Shown here: positions 37,573 through 52,053 of the stretch, piece by piece
Numbering within the stretch: the first letter of the stretch is position 1
Layout: every line of letters starts with the position of its first letter
Source: a candidate division WOR-3 bacterium
GTDB taxonomy: Bacteria > Hydrothermota > Tepidihabitantia > Tepidihabitantales > Tepidihabitantaceae
NCBI GenBank assembly: GCA_013177935.1
Contig: JABLXZ010000003.1
Coordinates: 124,001-188,000 of the forward strand
Reading direction: 5' to 3'
DNA: 64,000 nt
Translations under genes and position numbers: made by a program
The notes under the pieces: generated by a model
What the model was told of the DNA's origin: nothing
The model's input: only the letters and a program-made list of their open reading frames with translations
Database searches by the model: none

Positions 37573-38739
37573 TTAAATCCGGGAGTGGCTGAAAAACTCT
37601 TTTTTCAACCTTTCCATCAATTCCGGTCTCCGGTCGTAGAGGCGACGGAGTTTGCGCGGTTTGTGTTTGGCAAGGGCGTAGGCGGTTAAAAGCGGCAGGG
37701 CAACCGTACTATCAAGGTAGCAGACAACCGCATCCGGTAACCGGTTCGGGTCAACCTTTCCCCAGGATACCGCTTCGTGGGGTGTGGCGCCGGAAAGTCC
37801 GCCGGTGTCAGGCCGAGCATCGGTGAACTGGATAAAGTAGTCCTGACCGACATCGCGTAGCATCAGAATCTCCTGAATCTGGGGTTCGGTTTGAAGCATA
37901 AAGTTCTTGGGCGAGCCCCCTCCAATTAAAAGGACACCGGATTCACCGCCCGAGCGTTTGGCGTAAAGTACATAAGAGGTGGTTTCATTGACATCGATTG
38001 AAGGGTTGATGCGCAACTTTAAACCTTTCAGTTCCAGACCGGCGATGTTCATTCCGATTGTAGAGTCACCGGGCGAACTGGTGTGGATGGGCACACCACA
38101 GCGGTAAGCCGCAGCAAGGACACTGACATCCTTGTTGCCGGTCTTTTCCTCCCATTCGGCGGCGTATCTCCCCAGAAGGTAGTAGAACTCAGCGGTACCC
38201 ATCTCCTTTTGAAATTCGGGCTGAACCAGAATCCCGCGCAGAATTTCATCGGTGGCGCACAAACAGTCGGTGTACCCTAAGAAGATGTCGTAAATTCTCA
38301 CCACATCGTTTTTTCGCAAATCGGCGTCGTTGACCGCAGGTGAACCGACATAAAGCGGAAAGTTGAAGGCGAAATGGAGGTCGTGATACATATTGGCGCC
38401 GGTGGCAACAATCCAGTCAACAAAACCGGCTTTAATCAATGGTATGATGCAGGATGGTCCTAAACCGGCAGGGGTCAGGGCACCAGCAAGCGACATTCCG
38501 ACAATGGTTTTCGGACCAAGCATCTTTTTGGTAAAAAGTTCGCAAGCCTGCCGTAATCGGGCCGAGTTGTAGGCAAGGAAAGTCTCGTCAATCAGGTCGG
38601 TCAGTTTCTCTTTGCCGGTGATGGCAGGGGGAAGGATGCGTTTGCCCGAAAGATAGAGCTTTTTGTGGGGGCAGCGCCTTTTGCGCAGCCAGTCGGGCAA
38701 TTCACTCAGGTTTTCCCGAAACCGGTAATTTTTCTTCAT
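37573..38739 (-). CDS. Deoxyhypusine synthase-like enzyme (possible homospermidine synthase)
   Basis: 388 residues. NAD-binding [12 protein letters not shown] near residue 80, [13 protein letters not shown], the catalytic region [13 protein letters not shown], and the reactive lysine in [14 protein letters not shown] near residue 285. In archaea and eukaryotes this family moves an aminobutyl group from spermidine to eIF5A. Bacterial members lack that target and several make homospermidine or related polyamines. It lies 9 nt downstream of ornithine decarboxylase with GGAGG before the ATG, so polyamine synthesis from putrescine is the likeliest role. Confidence 0.85.
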
Positions 38740-38748
38740 ACTACCTCC

Positions 38749-39894
38749 TCAGGGTACAACGACAGTCTTTGCCGGCGGAATGCCGTTGAAACTGGTGGCG
38801 TGGGTTATTGAGTAGGCGCCGATATTGCGGGCGAATACCAGATCACCCAGTTCCAGTTCGGGTAGTTCTTCTGCCGGCGAGATGATGTCAAGGGAGTCGC
38901 AAGTTGGTCCGGCGAGTGTGGTCAGCTGGGTCGGTCCTTTCTTCAGGGCTTCAAACTGGTATTTGCAGTGGTCAAAAATTGTTCCGGAGAGAGCACCGTA
39001 AACCCCGTCGTCAAGATAGTACCAGTGTTTGTTGTTGCGAATCGACTTGCCAATAACCGACATCACGAGAATGCCCGCCGGTCCGATGAGCACCCGTCCT
39101 GGTTCAGCGATGATGCGGATTTCCGGGTCAAACAGTCGCGCCAGTTCCATATTAAGCGCCGGAGCCATTTCAGCAAACCAGTCTTCATCGGAGTCAAAAT
39201 GACGGATGGGGAAGCCGCCGCCGATGTCAATGATTGTTAATTTGAGCCCCTTTTTGTCGGCTTCGCTGAGAATCATTTTAGCAAGTTCCAGGGCTTCAAG
39301 GTAGTTGTTACCGTAGGTGCACTGGGAACCGACATGGAAGGCGATGCCCACCGGTTCCAGTCCCAGTTTGCGCGCCTTGAGCAGATAGGGAACGGCATCG
39401 GTAATCTCAGCCCCGAACTTGAGCGACAGTTCCACAACCGAGCCGACATTAGGGACCTTGATGCGGACAAGGACCCGGGCACGCGGCGCATAGCGGGCGA
39501 TTTTGGCGAGTTCGTATTCGGAGTCGAAGGTCATCAGATTTACCCCGCGGCGCCGGGCGAACTGAATTGCTTCGGTGCGTTTTATCGTGTTGGCGAAAAT
39601 CAGTTTTTCCGGTTTCACGCCCGCGGCAAGGACGAGTTCAATTTCAGGTTCGGATGCGACATCAAAGCCACAGCCGTGCTGGGCAAGGAGTTTTATCACT
39701 TCGGGGGTGGGGTTTGCTTTTACCGCATAAAACGGTTCAACTCGGGGCAGGAGTTTGCGGAAACGATTGAGCTGGGCAAGGAGCAGGGTGCGACTGATGA
39801 TGAAGAGCGGTGTGCCATGTTTTTTTGCAAGTCCGGGCAGGGCGGTCCGGAGTTTCTTGATGTAGGTTTTGGTGTTGTTACTGAATTTATTCAC
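38749..39894 (-). CDS. Ornithine decarboxylase, PLP fold III
   Basis: 381 residues. PLP lysine in FYAVKANP near residue 57, HVGSQ, glycine-rich IDIGGGFP, PGR, and the substrate-side cysteine in GPTCDSLD. GPTCDSLD and the length fit ornithine (or ornithine/lysine) decarboxylase rather than diaminopimelate decarboxylase. The product, putrescine, would feed the DHS-like enzyme encoded 9 nt downstream. The start is GTG, placed 6 nt after a -10 box (leaderless), with the promoter at the very end of the preceding alcohol dehydrogenase gene. Confidence 0.85.
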   Translation of the reverse strand: MNKFSNNTKTYIKKLRTALPGLAKKHGTPLFIISRTLLLAQLNRFRKLLPRVEPFYAVKANPTPEVIKLLAQHGCGFDVASEPEIELVLAAGVKPEKLIFANTIKRTEAIQFARRRGVNLMTFDSEYELAKIARYAPRARVLVRIKVPNVGSVVELSLKFGAEITDAVPYLLKARKLGLEPVGIAFHVGSQCTYGNNYLEALELAKMILSEADKKGLKLTIIDIGGGFPIRHFDSDEDWFAEMAPALNMELARLFDPEIRIIAEPGRVLIGPAGILVMSVIGKSIRNNKHWYYLDDGVYGALSGTIFDHCKYQFEALKKGPTQLTTLAGPTCDSLDIISPAEELPELELGDLVFARNIGAYSITHATSFNGIPPAKTVVVP

Positions 39895-41021: not shown

Positions 41022-41050
41022 TTGACGGAGCAAGAGAATTAAAATAGATT
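41022..41050 (+). promoter_or_regulatory. DsrE gene promoter (leaderless type)
   Basis: TTGACG, 17 nt, TAGATT; the -10 ends 6 nt before the ATG. Confidence 0.55.
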
Positions 41051-41056
41051 TATTAT

Positions 41057-41410
41057 ATGGAGAAAAAAAGTGTGGTTCTGTTTGCCATCAGTTCGGACCC
41101 GGTGGTGTTTGCCCATACATTGCTGAATGCGCTTGATATGAAGGAACGGGGCTGGGAGGTGAAGGTGGTGATTGAGGGTGATGCGACCAAGCAGGTTTCG
41201 CTTTTGCGCAATGAGACCAAGCCTTTTGCTAATATCTGGCTGCAGGCAAAGAAGGCGCAGTTGATTGAGGGCGTGTGCCGGGCGTGTGCCCAGAAGAATA
41301 CGGTGGTGCCAGCGGTTGTGGAATAGGGGCTGAAACTCCTTGACGATATGAACGGTCATCCTGCGATTGCCCGATATATTGAAGCCGGGTGCACGGTACT
41401 GGTTTTCTGA
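41057..41410 (+). pseudogene. DsrE-family protein gene interrupted by in-frame amber codon
   Basis: The first 89 codons (FAISSDPVVFAHTLLNALDM, CRACAQKN) match small DsrE/DsrF-like proteins of about 115-120 residues. A TAG at 41324-41326 stops the frame. The same frame then continues for 27 codons with the family's normal C-terminus (GLKLLDDMNGHPAIARYIEA, ending TVLVF and TGA). The family usually has Gln or Glu there, so one base change (CAG to TAG) explains it. Possibilities: a nonsense mutation, an assembly error, suppression, or a functional 89-residue form. The methyltransferase start lies 1 nt after the distal stop. Confidence 0.8.
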
Positions 41411-41411
41411 A

Positions 41412-42059
41412 ATGGCGCAAACTCTGTTTGATGACCAGGCGGAAAAGTATGACGCCTGGTACGATACCAAAGGAAAACTGGCATTTGAAATTGAACTGGC
41501 GGCACTAAAACCTTTACTTGCCGATTTGCCCAAACCCTGGCTTGAGATTGGCGTGGGTAGCGGCAGATTTGCGGAACGGCTGGGAATTGAGACCGGGGTT
41601 GACCCTTCAGAAAAATTGCTGGAGTTTGCCCGAAGGCGCGGGGTACAGGTGTTCTGTGCTTACGGGGAAAACTTGCCGTTTGCAGACGGTACGCTGGGCA
41701 CGGTGTTTCTCTTGACCACCTGGGAGTTTCTTGCCCAACCGCTGGCGGTGTTGAAGGAGATTTATCGGGTGCTGAAGCCGGAAGGCAGACTGGTCAACGG
41801 TTATCTTGACCGAAATGGAAAGTGGGGAATGAGTTATATTGAGAAGGCACGGCAGGGGCACCGGTTGTTTAGACATGCCTGGTTCGATGACTATCAAACG
41901 GTTGTTGGGTTAACCCGGCAGGCGGGTTTTGAGGTCCTGCGTACCGTTTCTACCCTGTTTCAGGGTCCAGGAGAAACGGTCATTATGGAAGAGCCGCAGG
42001 AAGGTTATGTACCCGGAGCCAGTTTTGTTGTGATTGTTGCCCGAAAATTGGCAACTTGA
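41412..42059 (+). CDS. SAM-dependent methyltransferase (type 11)
   Basis: 215 residues from ATG 41412; in-frame codons further upstream overlap the DsrE tail and are not homologous. Motif I LEIGVGSGRFAERL, acidic GVDPSEKLLEFA, motif II-like GENLPFADGTLGTV, and EIYRVLKPEGRLV identify a class I methyltransferase of the UbiE/type 11 group. Substrate unknown. Probably translated by coupling with the DsrE frame. Confidence 0.85.
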   Translation: MAQTLFDDQAEKYDAWYDTKGKLAFEIELAALKPLLADLPKPWLEIGVGSGRFAERLGIETGVDPSEKLLEFARRRGVQVFCAYGENLPFADGTLGTVFLLTTWEFLAQPLAVLKEIYRVLKPEGRLVNGYLDRNGKWGMSYIEKARQGHRLFRHAWFDDYQTVVGLTRQAGFEVLRTVSTLFQGPGETVIMEEPQEGYVPGASFVVIVARKLAT

Positions 42060-47157: not shown

Positions 47158-48423
47158 ATGGGTCAGGACAGTCCGCTTTCGGAAAGTTCTTTCAGACGCC
47201 GGCTGGCGTTTGAGTTTTTCATTGCCCGGCGTTATCTAAAAGGACGGGGAAAGAGGTTTTTTTCTGGCAACGCAACAATAGCGATGGGCGGAGTTTTTGT
47301 TGGCGTGGCGGCGATTATCATCGTGCTTTCGGTCCAAAATGGGTTTCATAAGGAGTTGCGGGACAGGATTCTTGGTTCATCACCCCATATCGTGGTTTCT
47401 CAGTACGGGTACAAACCGATTGATTACACCGGACCGGGCGATACGATAGTAGAGAAAATCAGAAGTGTGCCCGGAGTAACCGAGGTAGCACCGTTTCTCT
47501 ATTCAAAAATTTTAATGAAGGCGGGTCCGCTCGTCGAAGGTGGTGTGGTGCGCGGGGTAGAACCGGAACTGGAAGGCAGGTTGACCGATATCGCCCAAAG
47601 CGTTGTTGAGGGTTCATTTTCATTTGACTCTTCCGGTGTTGTCATCGGTGTGGAACTGGCAAGGTCATTGGGGGTGTTTGTCGGTGACCGGATCGTACTT
47701 GCCTCGCCGTTTTCCGGTACGGGTACGCCTCTGGGTTATCTGCCCCGGACAAAGTCGTTCCGGGTCAACGGTGTTTTCGATGCCGGGATGTATGAGTACA
47801 ACGCCAGTTTCGTGTTTGTTGATTTAGGTGACCTGCAGGAGTTTTTAGGGCTGCCCGGTAAGGTAAACGGTTATGAAGTACGGGTGGTTGATGTTGACAA
47901 TGCGGGACGGGTAGCGCGGCGGATTGCAATGAAACTGGATATGCCGTTTCGAGCAATTGACTGGATAACGCAGAACAAAAATCTTTTTACCGCGCTGCGA
48001 CTGGAAAAAACAGTAACCTTTATTGTGCTGGTGCTTATTGTACTGGTGGCGGCATTTAACATCATCGGGATGCTGACGATGATGGTCATCAGAAAAACCC
48101 GGGAGATTGGGATTTTGAAGACGATTGGCACCAAATCACCCAGTATCACCCGGATATTTATGCTTGTGGGTGCGTTAATTGGCGTGATTGGAACCGGATT
48201 GGGAGCGGTGTTCGGGTTTGTTGTGTCCTGGCTTTTGAACCGTTACCGTTTTGTTAATTTACCGGGCGATGTGTATTTTATTAAAAATCTACCGGTGCAG
48301 ATGCAGTGGCAGGATTTTGTTGTCGTCTGTTTGTCGGCGCTGGTTATAACATTTGCTGCCACCATTTATCCTGCTTACCGGGCAGCAAAGCTGCAACCGG
48401 TGGAGGCGATCCGTTATGAATGA
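47158..48423 (+). CDS. LolC/LolE-type lipoprotein-releasing ABC permease
   Basis: 421 residues. N-terminal FFIARRYLKGRGKRFFS, first helix with VFVGVAAIIIVLSVQNGF, a large periplasmic (MacB-type) domain (~60-270), then three C-terminal helices (FIVLVLIVLVAAFNIIGM ... RKTREIGILKTIG). With LolD it extracts outer-membrane lipoproteins from the inner membrane, so the organism should have an outer membrane. Only one permease gene is seen, so a LolC/E homodimer (LolF-like) is likely. It overlaps lolD by 8 nt. Confidence 0.9.
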   Translation: MGQDSPLSESSFRRRLAFEFFIARRYLKGRGKRFFSGNATIAMGGVFVGVAAIIIVLSVQNGFHKELRDRILGSSPHIVVSQYGYKPIDYTGPGDTIVEKIRSVPGVTEVAPFLYSKILMKAGPLVEGGVVRGVEPELEGRLTDIAQSVVEGSFSFDSSGVVIGVELARSLGVFVGDRIVLASPFSGTGTPLGYLPRTKSFRVNGVFDAGMYEYNASFVFVDLGDLQEFLGLPGKVNGYEVRVVDVDNAGRVARRIAMKLDMPFRAIDWITQNKNLFTALRLEKTVTFIVLVLIVLVAAFNIIGMLTMMVIRKTREIGILKTIGTKSPSITRIFMLVGALIGVIGTGLGAVFGFVVSWLLNRYRFVNLPGDVYFIKNLPVQMQWQDFVVVCLSALVITFAATIYPAYRAAKLQPVEAIRYE

Positions 48424-49102
48424 GCCGGTGTTGATTGCGGAAGGGCTGTGGCGCAGTTTTAAGACCGGGCCCGAAAAACTGGATGTACTGAAAGGCGTCC
48501 AATTTGAAGTGCACCGGGGTGAACTGGTGGCGATTGTTGGTCCATCCGGGTCCGGTAAATCAACACTTTTGCACATTCTCGGCGGGCTGGACCGGCCCGA
48601 TAAAGGCAGGGTTATCCTTGATTCCATTGATATTTTCAAGTATCCTGAATCAAGGTTGCCGGAGTTACGCAACCAGAAGGTCGGTTTTGTGTTTCAGTTT
48701 CATCACCTTTTGGCTGAGTTTACCGTGCTGGAAAATGTTGCGATGCCTTTGCTCATTGCCGGTGTTGAACGACAAGCAGCGTTGACCAAAGCAGAACAGG
48801 TGCTGGAGGAGGTGGGTTTTACCACACGATTACAGCATCGTCCGGGCGAACTTTCGGGCGGGGAACGGGCGCTGGTTGCGGTGGCGCGGGCGCTGGCAAA
48901 TACGCCGGCGGTGGTGTTTGCTGATGAACCGACCGGAAATCTGGACACGAGGTCGGCGACGGCTCTGATGGATTTACTCGTGAAGTTAACCGAGGAGAAA
49001 GGGAGAACGATTCTGGTTGTTACCCATAATGAGACACTGGCGGCTCGGGCGCGAAGAAGATTAAGGTTATGTGATGGGAGGCTGAAAGATGAAACTTTGT
49101 GA
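48416..49102 (+). CDS. lolD: LolD-type ABC ATPase
   Basis: 228 residues from ATG 48416, inside the 3' end of the permease gene. Walker A VGPSGSGKST near residue 41, Q-loop FVFQFHHLLAEFT, signature LSGGERALVAVARAL, Walker B VVFADEPTGNLD, H-loop VVTHN. FADEPTGNLD and FQFHHLL are typical of the LolD/MacB/FtsE group; the adjacent LolC-type permease decides for LolD. It overlaps mcsA by 14 nt. Confidence 0.92.
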   Translation: MNEPVLIAEGLWRSFKTGPEKLDVLKGVQFEVHRGELVAIVGPSGSGKSTLLHILGGLDRPDKGRVILDSIDIFKYPESRLPELRNQKVGFVFQFHHLLAEFTVLENVAMPLLIAGVERQAALTKAEQVLEEVGFTTRLQHRPGELSGGERALVAVARALANTPAVVFADEPTGNLDTRSATALMDLLVKLTEEKGRTILVVTHNETLAARARRRLRLCDGRLKDETL

Positions 49103-50616: not shown

Positions 50617-52053
50617 ATGGGATTGAGTGAAGAGGAAAAAAAGGAGCGGTTGCGCCAGTTGCCGGCGGTGGACAGGGTTCTGGGCGATGATAGGTTGTCC
50701 CCGGTTGTGAGCCGTTTGCATCCCCGATTGGCGAAATGGGTGGTCAGGCGGTATCTTGAGGAGGTGCGTGCCAAGATTCTCAACGGGGAAGATTTTGAGT
50801 TTGATGTTGAAGAGTTGCGGATGCGGTTGGCGCAGAACCGTAAACCCAGTCTGGTCCGGGCAATAAACGGGTTAGGTGTGGTTTTACACACCGGGTTGGG
50901 TCGCGCACCTCTTGCCCGGGTGGCACAGCAGGCGTTGATTGAGGTCAGTGAAAATTTTTGTACTCTGGAGATTAACCTTACCGATGGGAGAAGGGGAAGC
51001 CGGTATCGTCATATCGAGCCGCTACTTTGTGAGTTGACCGGAGCAGAAGCGGCGATGGTCGTGAACAACAACTGTGCCGCCACCCTGCTTATTCTCTCCA
51101 CGATTGCAAAGAATAAAGAGGTGATTGTCTCACGGGGGCAGTTGATTGAGATTGGTGGTTCGTTCCGGATTCCGGATGTGATGCGGCAGAGTGGGTGCAA
51201 GATGGTGGAGGTGGGAACTACCAATCGCACCCATCTACGGGATTACGAGGGCGCCATTACACCGGAAACTGGAGCGATTTTACGGGTGCACACCTCTAAC
51301 TACCGTATTGTTGGCTTTACCAAGGAAGTAGGGTTGGAGGAACTGGTGGCGCTGGGGCGGAAGCATCAGATTCCGGTGATAGATGATTTAGGCTCGGGCG
51401 CCTTGATTGACCTTGCGAAGTATGGCTTGCCCAAAGAGCCGGTAGTTGCCGAGTCAATTGCCCAAGGGGCGGATGTTGTTTGTTTCTCCGGTGATAAACT
51501 TATTGGTGCCGGACAGGCAGGGATTATTGTCGGCAAGAAGGTGCTGATTGACCGGATGAAAAAGAACCCGCTGACCCGCGCGTTGCGCTGTGACAAACTG
51601 ACCTATGCGGTTCTCGAAAGAACCTTAGAACTTTTTCTGGATGAAGAACGAGCAATACGAGAACACGCTCTGTTTCAGGTTGTTTTAAAGCCACTTGCGC
51701 AGATGCAGGAGGAGGCGCAAACGCTGTTACGGTTGGTCGGTGAACAGTTAAAGGATAAAGCAGATTTCGCCATTAAACCGACAAAAGCAGAGGTCGGCGG
51801 CGGTTCTCTCGCGACCGAGACGCTGGATTCAATTGCTTTGTCGGTAAAACCGAAGGAAATCTCGGTTGACGAACTGGCAAAAAGGCTCCGGTTTTACTCA
51901 ATACCGGTTTTTGCCCGGGTGGCAAACGATGAACTGCTACTTGACTTCCGCACTATCCGGAGTGACGAGGTTTCAATTGTGGGCGATGCCCTGATCTGGG
52001 CACTGACGAAAGGAGATGTGTTAGATGTTTCCGGTACTTTTAAGGGTGGGTAA
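50617..52053 (+). CDS. selA: SelA, L-seryl-tRNA(Sec) selenium transferase
   Basis: 478 residues, full length. N-terminal helical domain with LPAVDRVLGD; INGLGVVLHTGLGRAPL; PLP lysine in CFSGDKLIGAGQAGIIVG near residue 295; PLTRALRCDKLTYAVLE; C-terminal GGGSLATETLDS. It converts Ser-tRNA(Sec) to Sec-tRNA(Sec), so the organism probably encodes selenoproteins. selB, selC and selD were not found in the window. It overlaps lgt by 29 nt. Confidence 0.95.
   Translation: MGLSEEEKKERLRQLPAVDRVLGDDRLSPVVSRLHPRLAKWVVRRYLEEVRAKILNGEDFEFDVEELRMRLAQNRKPSLVRAINGLGVVLHTGLGRAPLARVAQQALIEVSENFCTLEINLTDGRRGSRYRHIEPLLCELTGAEAAMVVNNNCAATLLILSTIAKNKEVIVSRGQLIEIGGSFRIPDVMRQSGCKMVEVGTTNRTHLRDYEGAITPETGAILRVHTSNYRIVGFTKEVGLEELVALGRKHQIPVIDDLGSGALIDLAKYGLPKEPVVAESIAQGADVVCFSGDKLIGAGQAGIIVGKKVLIDRMKKNPLTRALRCDKLTYAVLERTLELFLDEERAIREHALFQVVLKPLAQMQEEAQTLLRLVGEQLKDKADFAIKPTKAEVGGGSLATETLDSIALSVKPKEISVDELAKRLRFYSIPVFARVANDELLLDFRTIRSDEVSIVGDALIWALTKGDVLDVSGTFKGG

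Follow-up and report, generated by a model that had tools for sequence, protein, structure and literature searches.

The closest described systems are the DsrE/DsrF-like proteins (PF02635; structures 3mc3, YchN 1jx7, 2pd2, 2fb6 and DsrEFH 2hy5), amber recoding by pyrrolysine or suppressor-tRNA systems, and recent bacterial nonsense pseudogenes. The gene analyzed here resembles the DsrE/DsrF-like family in its predicted fold, and members of its own family match the DsrE/DsrF profile; this member differs in that it is interrupted and scores below the profile cut-off when taken alone, and it belongs to a WOR-3 subfamily with motifs of its own (RNETKP, CxxC and GHP). With amber recoding it has in common a TAG inside a conserved frame. 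Unlike genomes that recode, this one has no CTA tRNA and no pylS, carries RF1, and the TAG is not conserved among relatives. Recent bacterial nonsense pseudogenes offer the nearest likeness: a single in-frame stop, an otherwise intact frame, no decay and loss of the gene elsewhere in the family. No feature was found that distinguishes the present case from them.

The interrupted frame and its probable operon

The window is the 64,000-nucleotide stretch G000:C3:124001-188000 of an assembly related to candidate division WOR-3 (1.96 Mb, 5 contigs, 98.6% complete, 0.21% contaminated). The frame of interest spans 41057–41410 on the plus strand, starts with an ATG at 41057 and comprises 117 codons, including a TAG, followed by a TGA. 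The first-pass annotation had described a DsrE-like gene split by an in-frame TAG at 41324–41326, and this was confirmed: 89 codons precede the amber codon (truncated frame, 41057–41326, plus strand; 93% identity to residues 1–89 of the intact orthologue), and beyond it the frame stays open to the TGA at 41408. The stranded 3′ part (41327–41410, plus strand) consists of 27 codons and the original TGA (41408–41410) and encodes the last helix and the last strand of the predicted fold. Its proposed identity as the family C-terminus also held, since the final 27 residues of the intact same-genus orthologue and of other relatives match it, and the residues first reported for it are correct. The TAG is also present in the genome assembly at G000:C3, and its T is known from one consensus sequence of one strain. 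Automatic annotation would yield an 89-residue gene at this position, unlike the normal form of the family.

The assignment to DsrE stood for the family and the predicted fold, and not for the window protein alone, which scored 15.6 bits against the Pfam DsrE model (PF02635), under the cut-off of 22.7. All 11 family members match PF02635 at E values up to 1 (best 1.6e-7), and a profile of the family matched 2fb6 in the PDB (E 4e-4). When the Pfam DsrE model was run against the genome that contains the window, it gave one match, at G000:C3:173122, which is a different gene and is itself sub-cut-off (14.6 bits).

The readthrough sequence was modeled with AlphaFold2 from three sequences (mean pLDDT 69.5, medium confidence); helix 102–109 and strand 113–116 of the model lie past the stop. 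Foldseek found no match in the PDB at E 0.001 or better, the best being 2fb6 (E 1.7e-3). Support for the fold comes from VIA-align, a re-ranking of Foldseek's own matches, in which the top nine rows have Z scores of 8.1–9.9 and the next row 6.8. Five of the nine are titled DsrE or YchN, and we take the remaining four (2pd2, 8uja, 2fb6 and 1l1s) to belong to the same fold family. The best row is 3mc3 (Z 9.9, rmsd 2.9, 101 residues aligned), and the matches to DsrE-family chains extend to the last residue. On this model, the readthrough protein is predicted to have the DsrE/YchN fold. Modeled by itself, the 89-residue form gave a mean pLDDT of 69.0 with residues 75–89 under 50, a model that is uninformative on folding. 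The conserved CxxC (C74, C77) is present, and a sulfur-carrier or sulfurtransferase activity is putative.

Upstream of the frame, a promoter-like site, TTGACG-17 nt-TAGATT (41022–41050, plus strand; 9 of 12 matches), ends six bases 5′ of the ATG. The scan of the region that recovered it gave 3 sites of such quality against 1.4 expected; the hexamers and the spacing are identical in the sister species. Judged from this placement, transcription would start at or beside the ATG, making the DsrE-like gene leaderless, and the promoter-like site looks intact, as originally described.

Downstream lies an intact SAM-dependent methyltransferase gene (41412–42059, plus strand; Pfam Methyltransf_11, 64.8 bits), 86% identical to its orthologue in the same genus, with a dN/dS of 0.13–0.22. 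It adjoins the DsrE-like frame: its ATG at 41412 is one base past the TGA, an arrangement kept in the sister species. The mechanical ORF list places its start at a TTG at 41367 instead. The two genes probably form an operon in which the DsrE-like gene comes first. A further in-frame ATG lies at 41348, inside the stranded 3′ part, and reinitiation there is a plausible way for the methyltransferase to remain coupled.

Codon 90 and loss of the gene among relatives

A homologue is present in two of the three genomes of the genus, the window genome, with the TAG, and G001, where the gene is intact and 89% identical. It is found in 11 of the 18 genomes of the family and in 16 of the 147 genomes of the phylum, and the internal stop occurs in the window genome alone. 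In an alignment of 11 sequences, which covers the 11 family genomes and leaves the 5 more distant phylum matches outside, the column of codon 90 is glutamine in all 10 relatives. The WOR-3 subfamily has the invariant motifs RNETKP, CxxC and GHP (residues 100–102), and every invariant residue other than Q90 is intact in the window frame. Termination at the TAG removes the invariant Q90, the GHP motif, Y107, G111 and the last strand.

The first-pass annotation had noted that intact, TAG-terminated orthologues of 89 residues would make the short form normal. None of the 15 other homologues carries such a stop, and the orthologues run to full length and have glutamine at codon 90. Thus, an 89-residue protein is not what the family normally encodes, and a one-base change in a glutamine codon, the origin proposed from the outset, is the simplest one.

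The methyltransferase is more widespread within the family than its small partner (15 of 18 genomes vs 11 of 18; these counts of absence include incomplete genomes). Four genomes, G009, G011, G014 and G017, have the methyltransferase without the DsrE-like gene. In G011, approximately 24 N-terminal codons survive ahead of the methyltransferase gene (E values down to 3e-6 by tblastn; L092, reverse complement, ~1385–1475) and are followed, within a few bases and in another frame, by letters resembling the last residues of the family; as read, this remnant is an apparent internal deletion. In G014, 32 bases matching the L090 DNA upstream of the gene (93.75%) stand directly before the methyltransferase start (L088, reverse complement, ~1421–1475), and here the gene looks as if it had been cleanly deleted. 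No remnant was detected in G009 or G017, whether with the family profile across the 3.6-kb loci or with tblastn across the 620 bases preceding the methyltransferase. G002, of the same genus as the window genome, lacks both genes, which may reflect incompleteness.

Comparison of these loci indicates that the family has lost the DsrE-like gene more than once and kept the partner methyltransferase. Since the methyltransferase was retained in these members, loss of the small gene is tolerated, and the TAG in the window fits as another, younger loss. The pattern suggests that the small protein is accessory to the methyltransferase and not essential to it. Taken by itself the case is ordinary, and what it adds is this family-wide pattern of loss. 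In G003, G004 and G017, the position before the methyltransferase is taken by a gene for a conserved, cysteine-rich protein of ~200 residues (L098, ~837–1436; L099, ~822–1427; L089, reverse complement, ~737–1330).

Decoding of the amber codon

Amber suppression had been offered as one of three explanations of the TAG, along with recent inactivation and an assembly error, and a CTA-anticodon tRNA and pylS had been named as the things to look for in the genome. Neither was found. The whole genome contains 48 matches to RF00005, 47 of them over the cut-off, and ARAGORN, run at all 48, gave 47 distinct tRNA sequences, of which none has the anticodon CTA; an odd tRNA recognized by neither RF00005 nor ARAGORN would escape this search. 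The best match to PylS in the genome scored 19.9 bits, where the cut-off is 178.15. RF1 (prfA) is present (453 bits, cut-off 423). On the strength of the tRNA set, the lack of pylS and the presence of RF1, decoding by pyrrolysine or by a suppressor tRNA was rejected, and no support was found for a dedicated tRNA that suppresses the codon. Three other TAG-ending ORFs in the block syntenic with G001 stop where their G001 counterparts stop, within one codon. A recoding RNA structure at the TAG is likewise unsupported, as the surrounding RNA is no more structured than its shuffles (z 0.41; a single sequence, with no covariation test).

Beyond dedicated systems, near-cognate tRNAs can insert glutamine at UAG, and tRNA-Gln(ctg) is present in the genome. 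A tRNA such as tRNA-Gln(CUG) might thus read through the TAG to useful effect, with the normal protein made from a weakened gene, a reading that draws some appeal from the fact that the lost residue is the invariant glutamine and that the conserved positions of the 27 C-terminal codons have not decayed. Against it stand RF1, the lack of a dedicated suppressor tRNA or pylS, the unremarkable RNA structure and the restriction of the TAG to one species; youth of the stop would alone account for the intact C-terminus. We regard such readthrough as very unlikely. Its stronger form is more doubtful still: low-level near-cognate decoding by tRNA-Gln would restore the exact glutamine, and the TAG would dim the operon's first gene, like a dimmer switch, instead of knocking it out.

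Selenocysteine machinery is present in this WOR-3-type bacterium: a tRNA-Sec(tca) at G000:C1:457478-457567 and SelA (PF03841, 491.5 bits) in the window at 50617–52053 (plus strand).

Age of the stop and competing readings

The window aligns with G001 over a block of 32.6 kb (29607–62201) at 83.2% nucleotide identity. ORFs were compared both ways within this block, 28 G001 ORFs against the window and 28 window ORFs against G001, and the DsrE-like gene was the only ORF clearly cut inside. Stops were otherwise present in the alignments of 5 of the 28 ORFs in one direction and of 1 of the 28 in the other; judged from lengths, these involve length differences of 3 to 12 codons or one ORF of 56% identity on the strand opposite a longer ORF. 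The window ORF at 48416–49102 is intact.

Relative to G001, codons 1–89 have a dN/dS of 0.083; in codons 91–117, dS is saturated and dN is 0.160. With three outgroup sequences, 2 nonsynonymous and 7 synonymous changes were assigned to the window branch before the stop, and 3 and 7 after it; of the remaining differences, 11 fell on G001's side and 17 were ambiguous. The share of nonsynonymous changes on the window's own branch, 5 of 19, compares with ~77% under neutrality (P about 4e-6) and with an expectation of 50% (P 0.03). Because these changes are mostly synonymous, most of the branch passed under selection for protein function. Such a branch would be expected if the stop is young, if the protein is still made or if the stop is an error, among which the test does not separate. 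No relaxation of constraint since the stop arose was seen on the own branch, as would also be the case for a young stop. A Poisson model limiting how old the stop can be rests on an assumed dS and dN/dS, and we take from it no more than 'young'.

Compared with the sister species, 24 of the 81 bases past the TAG are different, vs 23 of the 267 before it (Fisher P 8e-6). Among 22 gene pairs of the block, with coordinates set by hand, 3.0% of the 81-base windows reach 24 differences. Over the terminal 27 codons, the differences range from 6 to 25 per gene, and the DsrE-like tail is the second most divergent. Given that share of windows and that range among gene tails, this is a divergent tail and not a clear foreign tract. 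Import of the TAG with foreign DNA by recombination was considered on these data and set aside, with no clear evidence for it. The divergence at 41327–41407 is unusual at synonymous sites (15.2 of 19.8 relative to the sister species), and the own-derived synonymous changes number 7 in the 27 codons past the stop and 7 in the 89 before it.

The TAG is probably a recent nonsense mutation that inactivated a dispensable gene of the DsrE/YchN fold. This explanation, one of the three originally offered, is favored because the gene has been lost repeatedly in the family. One in-frame TAG would have replaced an otherwise invariant glutamine codon; ribosomes would stop there and release an 89-residue product lacking the last helix and strand and probably non-working, and the operon promoter and the methyltransferase would remain in use. 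Some observations pull the other way. The intact invariant residues would be expected equally of a readthrough protein still in use or of a sequencing error, and the intact gene in the sister species, with the low dN/dS over codons 1–89, suggests that the gene was useful for most of the history of the two lineages.

The main rival to recent inactivation is that the T is an error of the consensus or of the assembly, or that the assembly captured a minority allele from a mixed population, with the gene intact in the living organism. A single substitution suffices for it, and the intactness of the other invariant residues and the apparently normal selection on the own branch are what it would predict. 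The assembly looks clean, however, at 5 contigs with the completeness and contamination given above, the 32.6-kb block has no other clear internal stop, and other members of the family have lost the gene; we consider an error or minority allele unlikely. Least probable of all is a shortened protein of 89 residues that still works. It would keep the CxxC and most invariant residues, and codons 1–89 are highly conserved, but the stop has no parallel among the other homologues, and the short form would be missing Q90, GHP, Y107, G111 and the last strand of a fold whose structural matches run to the last residue. Recent inactivation thus stays the preferred reading. A full-text literature search on WOR-3 stop codons and on DsrE/methyltransferase pseudogenes gave, by its listings alone, no account of the gene.

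Elsewhere in the window, at 37573–39894 on the minus strand, a gene for a deoxyhypusine synthase family protein (PF01916) adjoins one for an Orn/Arg/DAP decarboxylase family protein, a pair that is possibly polyamine related.
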